This document shows positions 13,051-20,042 of a stretch of DNA of 39,521 nt, in pieces (positions within the stretch are counted from its first letter, which is position 1; each line of letters starts with the position of its first letter). The notes under the pieces are model-generated. The model saw only the letters and a list, made by a program, of their open reading frames with translations, was not told where the DNA came from and made no database searches. The stretch comes from Bacteroidales bacterium. Lineage in GTDB: Bacteria; Bacteroidota; Bacteroidia; Bacteroidales; P3. Made by a program: the position numbers and the translations under genes. Location of the stretch: positions 1 through 39,521 of the forward strand of contig JAFZFU010000076.1 of NCBI GenBank assembly GCA_017555745.1, written 5' to 3'.

Positions 13051-14415
13051 TTATTGTATATTAAGTTCTTGTAAAAAAGCTTCTTCTATTTTAGGTACTA
13101 TTGCATCTATGTCACCTGCACCTAATGTAATTAGTACTTCGGGCGAAAGAGCTATAAGTACATTAATAAGTTCTTCTTTTCCACATAAGTATTTAGTCAT
13201 TTTATTTATCTTATGAAGTATGGTCTTCGATGATACCCCTGGTATAGGTTGTTCTCGTGCCGGATATATATCGAGGAGTATTATTTCGTCAAGTGGCATT
13301 AAACTATCTGCAAATTCTTGAGCAAAGTCTTGTGTGCGAGAGTATAGATGAGGTTGAAATACTCCTACAATGCGTTTTTGAGGATATATAGCTTTAAGCG
13401 ATTTTATAACTGTAGAAAGTTCTTGAGGGTGATGAGCATAGTCGTCGATAAAAACGAAGTCGTTGGTTTTTATTCTATAGTCAAATCTTCGTTTTATGCC
13501 TTTGAATGTTTTAAGAGCATAACGTAGTTCGTGTTCTGTTACGCCACATTGCAATGCAACAGCTGCTGCTGCAACAGCATTTTCTATGTTATATAGTGGA
13601 GCACCCATTAATTCCATGTCGTAGTATACATGGTTTGGAGTGTGAAGGTCGAAATAGTAGTTTCCCTTGTATATGCGCACATTCCAAGCGTAATATTCTG
13701 ATTCTATATTATCGAATGAATATCGTTCAGTATGTATATCTTCGTTTATCTCTAAATCAATATTTTGTTTGAGAAATAGTTTGCCATTTTTATTTGTTTG
13801 GTTGCCATATTGTTTAAAGGCTTCAATAAGGTTTTCGTGAGTTTTGTATATGTCTAAGTGGTCCGGGTCTGTAGCTGTTATAATTGAGTATGTAGGATAA
13901 AGTTGATGAAACGAACGATCGTATTCATCTGCTTCTACAACGATGTATTCACTTTCGGGATTTATTACAACGTTGCTATCGAAGTTTTTTACTATCCCTC
14001 CCAAAAAAGCAGAACATCCAACGTGACTTTTGCTTAAAATGTATGCAATCATACCCGATGTAGTTGTTTTGCCATGACTTCCGGCTACGGCTATACATTT
14101 TTTATCAGTTGTTATTTCCCCTAATACTTGGGCTCGTTTTTTTATTGGTATATTGTTGGTTTTTATATAAACATATTCTTCATTGTCAATAGGTATTGCT
14201 GGAGTGTAGATTACTAAATCAACATTTTTTGGAATAAGATTAATGTTGGGAGTATAGTGTATTTCTATACCTTCAGCTTCGAGTTGTTTAGTCAAAGCTG
14301 TAGTTGTGCGATCGTAGCCACAAACTTTGTGTCCCATACTATTGAAGTATCGAGCTATGGCACTCATTCCAATGCCTCCGATTCCTAAGAAGTAATATGT
14401 TTTTTCTCTTTTCAT
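13051..14415 (-). CDS. murC: UDP-N-acetylmuramate--L-alanine ligase MurC
   Basis: This cytoplasmic ATP-dependent ligase adds L-Ala to UDP-MurNAc, the first peptide step of wall precursor synthesis. The N-terminal nucleotide motif FLGIGGIGMSAIARYF is at about residues 9-24. The Mur-ligase P-loop AGSHGKTTTSG is at 111-121. The central-domain segment VVEADEYDRSF and the C-terminal IDDYAHHPQEL and GVFQPHLYSRT motifs are present. The 454-residue length is full. Its ATG overlaps the murG stop (TAATG), suggesting translational coupling. Confidence 0.97.
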   Translation of the reverse strand: MKREKTYYFLGIGGIGMSAIARYFNSMGHKVCGYDRTTTALTKQLEAEGIEIHYTPNINLIPKNVDLVIYTPAIPIDNEEYVYIKTNNIPIKKRAQVLGEITTDKKCIAVAGSHGKTTTSGMIAYILSKSHVGCSAFLGGIVKNFDSNVVINPESEYIVVEADEYDRSFHQLYPTYSIITATDPDHLDIYKTHENLIEAFKQYGNQTNKNGKLFLKQNIDLEINEDIHTERYSFDNIESEYYAWNVRIYKGNYYFDLHTPNHVYYDMELMGAPLYNIENAVAAAAVALQCGVTEHELRYALKTFKGIKRRFDYRIKTNDFVFIDDYAHHPQELSTVIKSLKAIYPQKRIVGVFQPHLYSRTQDFAQEFADSLMPLDEIILLDIYPAREQPIPGVSSKTILHKINKMTKYLCGKEELINVLIALSPEVLITLGAGDIDAIVPKIEEAFLQELNIQ

Positions 14416-15536
14416 TATTTTACAAGTGAGTTTTTTATCTTTGTTTTAATAATGGTTTCTATTTCGTTAACAATTTTGTTTGCAGCATCCCGTACTCCCA
14501 TCGCTCTACAAGCTTGACTTAGCGTTTCTTGTTTGGTTTTGTCGTTTATTAATTCTGTTAGTGTTGCTATTAGTGTCGTGTTGGCATCTTTATCGGCTAC
14601 CATTATAGCAGCACCTTTGTTTACCAATGCCATTGCATTTTTGGTTTGATGGTCTTCCGAAACGTTAGGAGATGGTATCAATATGGTTGGTTTGCCTACT
14701 AAGCAAAGCTCCGATATGGCTATAGCACCAGCTCTTGATATTATACAATCGGCTATAGTGTATGCTTTGTCCATAAAGGATATGAATTCAAATACTTTTA
14801 TATTTTCTTCAGCATTGGCACGCTTCACTGCATCCACAGCTATTTGATAATACCCTTTTCCGGTTTGCCATATAAGTTGTATATCGTTATCTTTAAAAAA
14901 GTTTATATTATTGGTTATTGCTTCGTTTATAGTGTAGGCACCCAAACTGCCACCTACTGATAATATTGTTTTTTTAGATGAATTTAGGTTGAAGTATTCG
15001 TAGCTTTCTTCTTTGCTTGAATTGATATACTCTATGCTTTTTCTTACAGGATTACCTGTAAATACTATTTTCTCTTTTGGGAAAAAACGTTCAAGCCCAT
15101 CGTAAGCTACACATATTTTTGTAGCTTTTTGAGCGAGCATCTTATTGGTAAGTCCCGGATATGAATTTTGTTCTTGTAATATAGTAGAATATCCCAACTT
15201 TGTAGCCATTTTCAATGTTGGAGCACTGGCATATCCTCCCACACCGATTACGATATCGGGATTGAATTGTTTTATTAATTTTTTTGCCTTAAGTTGGCTT
15301 TTTATTAGTTTGAATGGCAATGCCAAATTTTTTAGAGTGAGTTTGCGTTGTAGACCTACTATTGGCAATCCTTCTATAGGATAACCTGCTGCCGGAACCT
15401 TTTCCATCTCCATTTTTCCGATGGCGCCTATAAAAAGAATATCTGACTCTGGATATCTATCTTTTATGGCATTTGCTATTGCCAATGCCGGAAATATATG
15501 TCCTCCTGTTCCTCCTCCACTAATTATTGCTTTCAT
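14415..15536 (-). CDS. murG: UDP-GlcNAc--undecaprenyl-PP-MurNAc-pentapeptide transferase MurG
   Basis: This GT28-family glycosyltransferase turns lipid I into lipid II on the inner face of the membrane. The N-terminal glycine-rich loop SGGGTGGHIFPALAIA (about residues 6-21) and VGVGGYASAPTL (near 99-110) are lipid I-binding or donor-site signatures. The C-terminal domain has SVGGSLGA and the UDP-GlcNAc motif SRAGAIAISELCLVGKPTIL. The length of 373 residues is normal. Its ATG overlaps the ftsW stop by ATGA and its stop overlaps the murC start, so the three genes are tightly coupled. Confidence 0.97.
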   Translation of the reverse strand: MKAIISGGGTGGHIFPALAIANAIKDRYPESDILFIGAIGKMEMEKVPAAGYPIEGLPIVGLQRKLTLKNLALPFKLIKSQLKAKKLIKQFNPDIVIGVGGYASAPTLKMATKLGYSTILQEQNSYPGLTNKMLAQKATKICVAYDGLERFFPKEKIVFTGNPVRKSIEYINSSKEESYEYFNLNSSKKTILSVGGSLGAYTINEAITNNINFFKDNDIQLIWQTGKGYYQIAVDAVKRANAEENIKVFEFISFMDKAYTIADCIISRAGAIAISELCLVGKPTILIPSPNVSEDHQTKNAMALVNKGAAIMVADKDANTTLIATLTELINDKTKQETLSQACRAMGVRDAANKIVNEIETIIKTKIKNSLVK

Positions 15537-16753
15537 ATTCTATTGTTTTTTTTGTTATCGTTAATGTTTTCTTCGTTCTTATCTTCCAAAACTTCTTCGT
15601 TGTTATTTGATAGGTTGTTTGAATGTGCTATTGATTGTATTATTCCTATTGCACAGCCTGATAGTATATACGATGTGCCTCCATAACTTACGAATGGCAA
15701 CGTTTGTCCGGTTACCGGGAGATATCCTACTGCAACGCCCATATTTATGAGAGCTTGTAGGTATATGTTTAATCCCAATCCTGATACTGTAAGTACTTTA
15801 AATAAATTATTACTTTTCCCTGCTATCACCACACATCTATAAAATAATGTCGTATATAACAATAATATTGCGATACCTCCAAGAGCTCCTAATTCTTCGA
15901 TAATTATAGCATATATAAAGTCGTTGTGCGATTCGCTTAATAGTCGTCCTTGTATAGTGCTTCCGGGTTGATTGCCTATAAGACCTCCCATTGCAACGGC
16001 CCTAAGTGCAATGTTTCTTTGTGTGTTTTTATCAAGATCATCATCTAACCACTCTGATATACGTCCGCCCCATGTGGCAGTACGCATTACTTCATCTTTT
16101 TCAAGTTCACCTGAGTTATATTCTAAAGTAAGAAAACTAAGTCCGGCTACAAAAATTAAGGTGCATATTCCTGCTACGATGGTCCAATATTTTTTGTTTA
16201 CATTACCCAAAAGCATCATTACGAAACAGCAAACGAATATAATTCCTGCTGTAGATAGGTTTTGTGGGAAAATAAGTCCGACTATTAATCCAATAGCACC
16301 TAATGTTAAGTAAAAGGTCTTTTTTTCTTTTATAGTATCTTGTGAATTTGTTAGAAAGCGAGCTATGAATAAAATAAGTAGATATTTAGCTATTTCTGAC
16401 GGTTGTAGTTGCCCTAGAAAAGGTATTTCGATCCAACGTCCGGCGGCTTTGTCGCTATAGCCGGCTTTATACATAAACAATGCGGCCACAAGCAGAATTA
16501 TCGAAATAAAGTATCCTATAGGTGATAATTGTTCAAATTTACGGTAGTTGATGTGCGAAATAAATACAATTACTAGGTAAGTAAAGCAAATGATGCGAAA
16601 ATGCTTAAACAATAGAAAAAAAGTAGCTATATCTCTATCGTGAGCATGTTTACCTATAGAGCTAAACACTTCTACTAATGAAACAAAACTGAGTAGAATA
16701 AGTACAACCCATATAATTTTATCACCTCGGATGAAACTCTTTATATTCTTCAT
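15533..16753 (-). CDS. ftsW: SEDS glycan polymerase FtsW
   Basis: This SEDS-family membrane protein polymerises lipid II into septal glycan together with FtsI. About ten hydrophobic segments are visible. The family signature near the C-terminus (YLPVTGQTLPFVSYGGTS), the AAGRWIEIPFLGQLQPSEIAKY segment in two parts, and SESHNDFIYAIIIEELG with its conserved acidic residues all fit. I chose the ATG at 16753 (MKNIKSFIRGDK, 406 residues). An in-frame extension to 16870 would overlap the murD-like gene and gives an unfamily-like N-terminus. Its stop overlaps the murG start (ATGA). Confidence 0.96.
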   Translation of the reverse strand: MKNIKSFIRGDKIIWVVLILLSFVSLVEVFSSIGKHAHDRDIATFFLLFKHFRIICFTYLVIVFISHINYRKFEQLSPIGYFISIILLVAALFMYKAGYSDKAAGRWIEIPFLGQLQPSEIAKYLLILFIARFLTNSQDTIKEKKTFYLTLGAIGLIVGLIFPQNLSTAGIIFVCCFVMMLLGNVNKKYWTIVAGICTLIFVAGLSFLTLEYNSGELEKDEVMRTATWGGRISEWLDDDLDKNTQRNIALRAVAMGGLIGNQPGSTIQGRLLSESHNDFIYAIIIEELGALGGIAILLLYTTLFYRCVVIAGKSNNLFKVLTVSGLGLNIYLQALINMGVAVGYLPVTGQTLPFVSYGGTSYILSGCAIGIIQSIAHSNNLSNNNEEVLEDKNEENINDNKKNNRI

Positions 16754-16778
16754 TGTGGCTATATTATGTGTATTGTTT

Positions 16779-17318
16779 TTATAAGTCGAAAACTTCGCGT
16801 TGATATTCTTTGCCTTGCTCTGTTGCCGGTATTCCATTTTCACATGCGGGCGAGAATAGAACTGCAGCATTTTCGATGTCGGAATATAATGCGGTGTTAA
16901 CGGCTTCTTTTATCGATTTTACATCTGTTATAGTAGGTATTATTCCCGAAAATACATCATGCAAACGAGTATTGTCGTTTCCTACACATACAAGCATACG
17001 TATTTTGCGTAGTGCTAAAGGGATAAGAGTTGTAAAATCGGTAGTGTTGTTGTCGCCGTTGGCTATCCAGATAACTGCTTTATCCATTGTTTCGAGCGAA
17101 TACCAAGTGGCATTAGGTGTACGCGACATGGCATCGTTGATAAACTCCATACCATGTATGCGTGCTGTAAATTGCAAACGGTAGGGTTCCTTATCGAAAT
17201 GGGTGAAGCAATCTATAAGGTTTTTGTTTCTTAGTTTTTTTAGTTTCTCTACATCTATTCCGGCCAATCCGTTGTAAACTTTTTCTCTGCCTTGTGTTGC
17301 TAATGTTTCTATATTCAT
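16779..17318 (-). CDS. Stand-alone, degenerate MurD C-terminal domain (murD remnant in the dcw cluster)
   Basis: The 179-residue product sits exactly where murD (about 440-450 residues) belongs, 18 bases after mraY. It matches only the MurD end. REKVYNGLAG (11-20) corresponds to the close of the ATPase domain, YRLQFTARIHGMEFIND (46-62) to the start of the C-terminal domain, then TWYSLETMDKAVIWIANG and VCVGNDNTRLH. The Rossmann and P-loop ATPase domains are absent. An in-frame TAG at 17328-17330 and the mraY stop exclude an upstream extension. The usual DSKATN motif reads DAMSRTPN, losing the lysine, and the usual SPACASFDLF reads SPACENGIPA. It cannot catalyse D-Glu addition on its own. The ORF is intact and still tracks the domain to its end, so it may be retained for a non-catalytic role or be a decaying gene. 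A full-length MurD must exist elsewhere. Confidence 0.85.
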   Translation of the reverse strand: MNIETLATQGREKVYNGLAGIDVEKLKKLRNKNLIDCFTHFDKEPYRLQFTARIHGMEFINDAMSRTPNATWYSLETMDKAVIWIANGDNNTTDFTTLIPLALRKIRMLVCVGNDNTRLHDVFSGIIPTITDVKSIKEAVNTALYSDIENAAVLFSPACENGIPATEQGKEYQREVFDL

Positions 17319-17336
17319 ATTATTATACTATTTTTA

Positions 17337-18590
17337 TTATCGAAGTTTTAATGTTATTATTGTTATTATTGCCAAAACTATCCCTATCAAAAAGAATCGT
17401 TGAACTAATTTTTGTTCAGGTATTCCTTTTTTCTGATAGTGATGATGTATAGGCGCCATCAAGAATACTCTGCATCCCTGGCCATATTTCTTTTTTGTGT
17501 ATTTGAAATATGATCGTTGTATTATTACAGATAAGTTTTCTATTACAAAAATTCCGCAAAGTATTGGGATTAGTAGTTCTTTTCTGATAAGGATTGCAAA
17601 TACCGCTATTATACCTCCCAAAGCCAATGAACCGGTATCGCCCATAAATATTTCGGCAGGGTGAGTGTTGTACCACAAAAAACCAATAGTGGCACCTACA
17701 AAAGCTGATATAAAAATTGTAAGTTCACCGATGTTCGGCAAAAACATTATGTTTAGGTAATTGGAGAATATTATATTGCCCGACACCCATGCCAATATTG
17801 CTAATGTGCTACCAATTATAGCCGATGTTCCCGTAGCCAGCCCATCTATGCCATCTGTAAGATTGGCTGCATTGGATACGGCCGTTACTATGAATATCAC
17901 TATAACTACAAATATGATCCATACCCAATTTTTTGTCCAATCCCCCATCCAAGATATTAGGTCGGCATAGTCAAACTCATTATCTTTGACAAAAGGTATG
18001 GTTGTTTTTGTAGATTTTACAGGGTGTTCAACAAATTCTTTTTTTGCTTTTTCGTAGTTTTTGTCGATGTTTACATTGTGAGTCTCAACAAATGTTTCCA
18101 CAGATTTGCGTTCTTTTATGGTTATATCGGGGTGAAACATTATTATAAGACCTACTACAAGTCCAAGTCCTACTTGTCCTAATATCTTATATTTGCCTGG
18201 TAGTCCTTCTTTATTCTTTTTGAATACTTTTATGTAGTCATCCAAAAAGCCTAATAGGCCTAACCATATAGTTGTAATAATCATCACTATTACATATATG
18301 TTGTCTATTTTGGCAAACAATAAGGTCGGTATCAGTATAGCAGCAAGTATTATGATGCCACCCATTGTAGGTGTACCTTCTTTTTGTTTTTGCCCTTCGA
18401 GTCCCAAGTCTCGCACGGTTTCTCCTATTTGTTTTTTTCGCAAATACTTTATTATAGGTTTGCCAAAAACAACAGTTATAATCAACGATGCTATTGCAGC
18501 CATTGAGGCACGAAACGAAATGTATTGAAATACACCTGCTCCCGGTAAATCAAATGCTTTATCAAGCCAATCGAATAAGTAGTATAGCAT
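17337..18590 (-). CDS. mraY: Phospho-MurNAc-pentapeptide transferase MraY
   Basis: This polytopic inner-membrane enzyme moves phospho-MurNAc-pentapeptide onto undecaprenyl phosphate, making lipid I. Signature segments are [13 protein letters not shown] (about residues 70-82), [14 protein letters not shown] with the catalytic-site aspartates, [27 protein letters not shown], and the histidine motif [12 protein letters not shown] near the end. The 417-residue length exceeds the proteobacterial 360 because of a soluble, charged insertion (about residues 155-210) between transmembrane segments, as is usual in Bacteroidetes. It lies 9 bases after murE and 18 before the murD remnant. Confidence 0.97.
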
Positions 18591-18599
18591 AATGTTGTT

Positions 18600-20042
18600 T
18601 TATTTTAGTATGTTAATTAATTCTTCTTTGTCATCGAAATGGTGTTTTACACCATTTATATCTTGATATTTTTCGTGTCCTTTGCCTGCCACCAAAATTA
18701 TATCGCCATTTTGTGCCAACTTACAAGCTGTTTTTATAGCTTGTTGTCTATTGGTGATACGTATAGTTTTTTCCTTCAAAGTGTTGTTAAGACCCTCTTC
18801 CATATCATTGAGTATTTTTTCTGGATCTTCGGTACGAGGATTGTCGGATGTCAGTATCACTGTGTCGCTCATGTTGGCAGCTATGTTCGCCATTACCGGA
18901 CGTTTAGAACTATCTCTATCGCCACCGCAGCCTACTACTGTAATTAGTTTTTGATTATCAAGGCGTATGTCATTTATTGTTTGTAATACATTTTTCAAAG
19001 CATCAGGGGTATGAGCATAATCTACAATGGCTGTTTTGCCTTCTCCAGTTACGTATTCAAATCTGCCTTCTGCTGCTTGTAGGTTGCTTAGTTGTGTAAG
19101 TGCTTCCATTTCATCTATTCCACATAGACGTGTAGTTGCGTATATTGCCAAAAGATTATAGGCATTAAAACGACCTACAAGCCGTGTCCATACATCTTTG
19201 CCATTAATGTTTATAAGTAACCCTTGAAAAGTGTTTTCCAGTATCTTGACATTGAAGTCGGCTATTTCTTGTATGCTGTATGTATATTTTTTTGCTTTAG
19301 TGTTTTGAAGCATTACAAGGCCGTTGCGGTCATCTATATTAGTAAGTGCAAATGCAGATGTCGGCAAATTGTCGAAAAACATCTTTTTTGCTGCTATGTA
19401 TTCGGCAAATGTTTTGTGAAAATCAAGGTGATCGTGGGTTATATTGCTGAATATGGCTCCATAGAATTGTAATCCGGCTATTCGTGCTTGAACTATGGAA
19501 TGTGAACTAACTTCCATAAAACAATACTCACAACTATTGTCAACCATTTCCGATAACAATCTGTTTAGTGCTACTGCATCGGGGGTAGTGTGAGTTGATG
19601 GTATTTCTTTTTCGTTTATTTTGTTTACTATAGTCGAAATAAGTCCGGTGTTGTATCCTATTTGTCTAAATAGTTTGTGTAATAGTGTTACTGTTGTAGT
19701 TTTGCCGTTAGTTCCGGTTATGCCTATAAGTTTCAATTTTTTTGATGGGTTGCCATAAAATGTCGATGCCATCAATCCCAAAACTTTACTACTATTTTCT
19801 GTTTTAATATATACCACATCTGCTTTTATATCGGCAGGTAATTGTTGACATACTATGGCTGAGGCACCTTTTTCTATGGCCGAGGCTATGTAGTTATGTC
19901 CGTCAACATGTACTCCTGATTGAGCAATAAACAATGCGCCCTCGTGTATATCACGCGAGTCGAAAGTAATCTGAGTTACTTCTATGTTGCGATTGTTTAT
20001 TATTTCGCAGTCTATGTTATATAATAGTTCGTTTAATTTCAT
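18600..20042 (-). CDS. murE: UDP-MurNAc-tripeptide synthetase MurE (meso-DAP type)
   Basis: This cytoplasmic Mur ligase adds the third amino acid to UDP-MurNAc-L-Ala-D-Glu. The N-terminal domain has TFDSRDIHEGALFIA (residues 27-41). The P-loop GITGTNGKTTTVTLL is at 107-121, and the central STHTTPDA and VSSHSIVQARIAG motifs are present. The C-terminal domain has DYAHTPDAL and DNPR at 400-403. DNPR is the known determinant for meso-diaminopimelate rather than lysine. The length of 480 residues is normal. The ATG overlaps the ftsI stop by one base (TAATG). Its substrate is the product of MurD, whose local gene is truncated. Confidence 0.97.
   Translation of the reverse strand: MKLNELLYNIDCEIINNRNIEVTQITFDSRDIHEGALFIAQSGVHVDGHNYIASAIEKGASAIVCQQLPADIKADVVYIKTENSSKVLGLMASTFYGNPSKKLKLIGITGTNGKTTTVTLLHKLFRQIGYNTGLISTIVNKINEKEIPSTHTTPDAVALNRLLSEMVDNSCEYCFMEVSSHSIVQARIAGLQFYGAIFSNITHDHLDFHKTFAEYIAAKKMFFDNLPTSAFALTNIDDRNGLVMLQNTKAKKYTYSIQEIADFNVKILENTFQGLLININGKDVWTRLVGRFNAYNLLAIYATTRLCGIDEMEALTQLSNLQAAEGRFEYVTGEGKTAIVDYAHTPDALKNVLQTINDIRLDNQKLITVVGCGGDRDSSKRPVMANIAANMSDTVILTSDNPRTEDPEKILNDMEEGLNNTLKEKTIRITNRQQAIKTACKLAQNGDIILVAGKGHEKYQDINGVKHHFDDKEELINILK

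Follow-up and report, generated by a model that had tools for sequence, protein, structure and literature searches.

The MurD2/MurL route for installing D-glutamate has been described in Xanthomonas and in a small number of other genera. A glutamate and an arginine are the L-glutamate determinants of Xanthomonas MurD2 (PMC8788868). Mur-ligase domains have also been reused in complexes, as in MurT of MurT-GatD and in the MurE-like subunit of the plastid RNA polymerase. In Bordetella, MurG binds a MurE-MurF fusion, and MurG has been proposed to be a scaffold (PMC6420597). We regard the Bordetella, MurT-GatD and plastid complexes as possible, indirect precedents for a docking piece derived from a Mur ligase.

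The locus that we describe here lies in a 39,521-nt stretch of DNA (the window; positions 1 to 39,521 of contig JAFZFU010000076.1) from a Bacteroidales genome, GCA_017555745.1. Its dcw cluster has a short gene in the same position as a full-length murD, and the product is predicted to share the MurD C-domain fold. Unlike full-length MurD, this is a stand-alone protein of 179 aa without the N-terminal and ATPase domains and without the catalytic and glutamate-binding lysines. The genome resembles Xanthomonas oryzae (PMC8788868) in that a MurL homologue accompanies a MurD2-type ligase carrying the E and R residues, and in that we found neither MurI nor a D-amino-acid transaminase. It differs from the X. 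oryzae route in that MurL and MurD2 of Bacteroidales may be fused (~890 aa) or unlinked, and in that the old murD has been kept, as a C-domain or at full length. The Bacteroidales MurL is also divergent: the homologue in this genome scores 267 bits, below the equivalog cut-off of 700 bits of NF041275, a model built for Xanthomonadales. MurT and the plastid MurE-like subunit both match our structural model of the short protein, but they are larger Mur-ligase proteins of other subfamilies, and the short protein's partner is hypothetical. Our search of the open-access literature turned up neither a description of MurL/MurD2 from Bacteroidales nor one of a MurD C-domain standing alone.

The short gene and its neighbours

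A preliminary description, made from the letters of the window, had read the gene as an intact frame for the last third of MurD without the ATPase domain, and the profile searches bear this out. The only NCBIfam match of the protein is TIGR01087 (MurD), with E 3e-25 over profile positions 266-419 of 441; the score of 89.1 bits is below the curated whole-protein cut-off of 211.95 bits, so the protein falls outside the three-domain MurD equivalog. Mur_ligase_C is the only Pfam match (23.6 bits, E 1e-4, below the cut-off of 28.4), and the Pfam search found no Mur_ligase_M middle domain with its P-loop and carbamylated lysine. The DSKATN lysine is indeed replaced (NDAMSRT). SPACASFD had been called missing, and here the description was half right: SPAC is retained and the remainder is gone (SPAC-EN...GIP). 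With NDAMSRT, NGDNNTTDF and SPACEN in these places, the window protein lacks both catalytic lysines of the C-domain (E. coli K319 and K348) and the SFD.

The fold comparison with MurD that had been proposed came out in favor of a shared fold. An AlphaFold2 model of the protein had a pLDDT of 83.7, with values of at least 90 over most of residues 51-179 and low values for the first ~40. The model matched MurD C-domains in the PDB with Z 17-23 (mostly 19-23) and an rmsd of 1.6-2.3 Å over ~138 residues, against Z ~12-13 for other Mur ligases. Profile A1 matches MurD structures at 2e-24. From the model, we conclude that the protein has a Mur ligase C-domain fold.

The neighbouring genes are full length and tightly spaced, as had been noted (Table 1). 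The frame called as ftsW (15533-16870, 445 aa) begins within the short gene, which is too early. We placed the start at the ATG at 16753 because orthologues start at the matching residue.

Table 1. Features of the window, of the genome that it comes from and of related genomes.
Feature	Location	Strand	Length	Remarks
murC	13051..14415	-		full length
murG	14415..15536	-		full length
ftsW	15533..16753	-	~405 aa	from the likely ATG; downstream of the short gene, 25-nt gap
Stand-alone MurD C-terminal-domain gene	16779..17318	-	179 aa	ATG start, TAA stop
N-terminal helical extension of its product	residues 4-37			low confidence
C-domain fold of its product (predicted)	residues ~43-179
mraY	17337..18590	-	417 aa	full length; upstream of the short gene, 18-nt gap
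murE	18600..20042	-		full length
MurD2-type ligase	contig C106, L008:3440-4837		465 aa	MurD-type, full length
MurL homologue	contig C30			NF041275, 267 bits, E 2e-79, positions 32-396 of 447
MurL-MurD2 fusions, several genera of the family	L049:4601-7267, L050:2565-5255, L051:4409-7120, L052:4196-6856, L053:2765-5521		~890-918 aa
Intact dcw MurD in genomes with MurL and MurD2 and without MurI	L134, L136, L137, L138, L143, L145, L148, L154, others

A sequence search across 121 genomes of the window's family matched the short gene in 119 of them and in all 12 genera. Among the matches listed, those in the dcw cluster lie in frames of ~180 aa, mostly 175-230 aa. Every locus of the family that we read with both flanks has the order mraY, short gene, ftsW, with a gene of about 174-186 aa. 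Also conserved in the family is the part of the N-terminus that came from the middle domain of MurD (Q9, G10, A19, R30). The preliminary description had proposed looking at the syntenic gene of relatives and computing dN/dS; the relatives have the same gene, and comparison with a congeneric genome gave 0.069 for it. The neighbours in the same comparison gave 0.057 (murG), 0.059 (murC), 0.049 (murE) and 0.124 (ftsW). Because of the family-wide conservation and the low dN/dS, we explain the gene neither by neutral decay nor by an assembly error. An error hiding a full murD is ruled out by the same arrangement in independent genomes of the genus and the family.

We also compared the residues of 46 short forms with those of 49 full-length C-domains. 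Those relaxed in the short forms are H275 (kept in 2%), K354 (E. coli K348; 22%), N276 (26%), K327 (K319; 50%) and F425/D426 (57%), and S424 is likewise relaxed. Retained are D325 and I348 (100%), W335, W347, A402 and F438 (98%), and V369, G376 and P420 (96%); the H309-R310 position has R or K in all short forms. Since catalytic residues have relaxed and fold residues have been retained, the fold has been preserved and the chemistry with glutamate and ATP has not.

A MurD2-type ligase and a MurL homologue in the same genome

There are seven Mur_ligase_M proteins in the genome: MurE, MurC, MurF, MurF-Alr, FolC, an Mpl/MurC-like ligase and one MurD-type ligase, on contig C106. The genome thus has a stand-alone MurF as well as a MurF-alanine racemase fusion (L002, L003). 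The MurD-type ligase has E, R and I at the positions of D182, K348 and K319 of E. coli MurD (motifs ...FQEHLD... and GGFDRGIDYS). Of 37 MurD2-type proteins, all those that can be read at the specificity sites have E and R, against D, K and K in 48/48 full-length dcw MurDs examined. By this signature the protein on C106 is of the MurD2 type, and its L-glutamate-adding activity is putative. It is 85% identical to the enzyme of a congeneric genome, which rules out contamination as the source of the contig.

The preliminary description had suggested that a functional murD lies elsewhere. A full-length MurD-type ligase does, but it is a distinct paralogue of the MurD2 type, which probably works with the MurL homologue, and not a murD that has moved. 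We ruled out a relocated canonical murD because the genome's other full ligase is of the MurD2 type, and a split MurD with its N-terminal and middle domains elsewhere because all Mur_ligase_M matches in the genome are in full-length Mur-type ORFs.

In relatives, MurL is either fused to MurD2 or encoded next to it, whereas the two are unlinked in the window's genus (C30 and C106). In one locus (L056) they are separate genes lying side by side. This genetic link and the absence of MurI support the assignment of the C30 protein to MurL. Our searches of the genome found no glutamate racemase MurI, and no D-amino-acid transaminase above the cut-off. The genome is 89% complete, but incompleteness is not the reason for the absence of MurI because MurI is also missing from relatives that are 99-100% complete. 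D-glutamate is probably installed through the MurD2/MurL route as in Xanthomonas, with the L-glutamate chemistry predicted from the specificity residues.

Distribution and probable repeated truncation in Bacteroidales

We surveyed 295 genomes of the order Bacteroidales, from 184 genera, with a profile of the short gene and by reading loci. MurL matched in 100/295 genomes (64/184 genera); two of the matches are mere fragments (G195, G306), leaving ~98 genuine ones. None of the genuine MurL genomes in the survey had a MurI over the family cut-off. Among the matches listed, 37 MurL genomes, in ~20 families, have the short gene, ~52 have an intact full-length murD, and a few have no readable locus. 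All ~79 genomes without MurL among the matches listed have a full-length murD and none has the short form. It had been thought that a dcw cluster without murD would be unusual. On the contrary, it is typical of the window's family and recurs in those ~20 families of the order.

There are exceptions on both sides. Two short genes in genomes with no MurL match were found separately, in G135 and in G360 (68% complete). G135 is 98% complete, with its short gene at L181:1417-1989; MurL, MurI and any MurD-level ligase are all unmatched in it. The short gene of G360 (L183:1495-2292) is longer, at 265 aa, apparently because a repeat found throughout the genome has been inserted into the domain in several places without breaking the frame. 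An intact D-type MurD (D/K/K) is present in the dcw cluster of about half of the MurL genomes, which also have MurD2 and show no MurI. We ruled out that these full-length genes have pseudo-enzyme ATPase domains, since their motifs are intact. In family f78 (G197 and G300, with A+T-rich genomes), mraY stands apart in a broken-up dcw cluster and is followed by neither murD nor a short gene (L234, L235). MurL adjoins mraY in G300. The short gene can evidently be lost, because f78 has MurL and no short gene. G140, G248 and G354 are not usable as losses since their assemblies have no true mraY match, and we left out G279, whose murD runs off the contig end. An independent-contrast test of the short gene against MurL gave 2.8 pairs for and 0 against, which is consistent with an association but not significant, the test having low power.

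Short and full forms occur side by side within families f4, f6, f13, f27, f35, f50, f74 and f120. A tree of the mraY and ftsW flanks (99 loci) has 13 changes between short and full, at least 7 of them forced by well-supported branches. Regrowth of two lost domains is unlikely, so separate truncations are the best reading of these changes. The murD gene is best read as having been trimmed to its C-domain independently several times, and recombination within the dcw cluster may have contributed. We think it quite unlikely that the short gene arose just once or twice and then spread by such recombination. In most lineages, the short product does start at the same internal Met (~264) with a length of 180-182 aa, as one would expect from few events. 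The C-domain tree alone, which has few supported branches, also leans that way, in that its starred branches force only 2 changes. However, the short domains of f13, f50, f74 and f120 are closest to the full-length C-domain of their own family (64-69%, as compared with 53-64% for the other short forms), and the flank tree stands against it as well. Long branches in the C-domain tree show that the short forms change more quickly than the full-length C-domains do.

What the retained domain may do

We believe, with somewhat more confidence than doubt, that MurD was displaced by MurD2/MurL and that its C-domain was kept as a non-catalytic docking, scaffold or regulatory protein. Free D-glutamate would not be detectably made in this lineage, which has no MurI. 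The MurD2-type ligase would probably add L-glutamate to UDP-MurNAc-L-Ala and the MurL homologue would epimerise it to D-glutamate. The dcw murD, freed of its catalytic duty, could then have lost its UDP-binding and ATPase domains, with the C-domain from an internal Met near codon 264 being kept as a separate ~180-aa protein under strong purifying selection. This protein, presumably expressed, would most likely serve the cytoplasmic wall-precursor enzymes that are its dcw neighbours (MraY, FtsW, MurG and the other Mur ligases) non-catalytically, as a scaffold, docking piece or regulator. We find such a role the simplest because the protein is non-catalytic, is encoded in the wall cluster and is constrained like an enzyme, and has lost the residues for chemistry. 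A regulatory or scaffolding role was one of two options in the preliminary description, and it has turned out to be better supported than decay, with the role itself being what we infer. Several observations count against the displacement and docking explanation, namely the loss in f78, G135 without MurL, the fast evolution of the short forms, the contrast test that fell short of significance and the MurL match below the cut-off. The catalytically intact MurD in about half of the MurL genomes counts against pure displacement, which does not predict it.

More tentatively, and at somewhat less than an even chance, the MurD C-domain may have a general role in the wall machinery that is independent of catalysis, perhaps in ordinary MurD too, and that was unmasked when many Bacteroidales lineages independently cut murD down to precisely this domain after the switch to MurD2/MurL.

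The short protein could instead act in trans on the MurD2/MurL pair, as a subunit or an activator that might stabilise MurL or channel UDP-MurNAc-L-Ala-Glu from one enzyme to the other. Short forms are almost confined to MurL genomes among the matches listed, nearly all MurL genomes retain a MurD C-domain (alone or in full-length MurD), and Mur ligases can act with a partner, as in the MurT-GatD structures that our model also matched. We still regard this as unlikely because MurD2 already has its own C-domain, and no third protein is reported for the recombinant MurD2 and MurL of Xanthomonas, which were active (PMC8788868). Neither f78, with MurL and no short gene, nor G135, with the reverse, fits a helper. 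A regulator that binds nucleotide, glutamate or UDP-MurNAc-peptide and reports the precursor level to MraY or FtsW is decidedly unlikely. D325 and H309-R310, which presumably contact ATP in E. coli MurD, are conserved while the glutamate-binding residues are relaxed, but they may be conserved for structure. In addition, the lost domains carried most of the active site, and K354, S424 and F425 are relaxed.

Two readings remain. Tight spacing, and loss of the gene where the dcw cluster is dispersed (f78), would suit a mere spacer for translational coupling between mraY and ftsW, with the protein itself irrelevant. A spacer needs neither a dN/dS of 0.07 nor fold residues conserved at 96-100%, and it would hardly keep a constant length of ~180 aa or reach the same domain boundary repeatedly, so we consider it very improbable. 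To neutral decay of a redundant murD, the other option of the preliminary description, we give almost no credence. There is a full ligase elsewhere and the motifs are degenerate, but no stop codons occur across 12 genera, and the purifying selection, the constant length throughout the family and the recurrence of the same truncation rule out decay of this genome's copy.

Many gut Bacteroidales appear to have exchanged MurD for an alternative L-glutamate route, with its last third repeatedly kept in the old position. Our survey assigns the MurD2/MurL route to roughly one in three of the genomes sampled from the order, many of them from gut bacteria. If the route operates as we propose, MurI inhibitors should fail in the Bacteroidales that use it, and MurL would be a narrow-spectrum target there instead. 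That the last third of MurD is so strongly conserved suggests that this domain has another, concealed function. If that is true, an essential and much-studied antibiotic-target enzyme does something besides catalysis through its C-terminal domain, and a separation-of-function allele of MurD has already arisen many times in nature.
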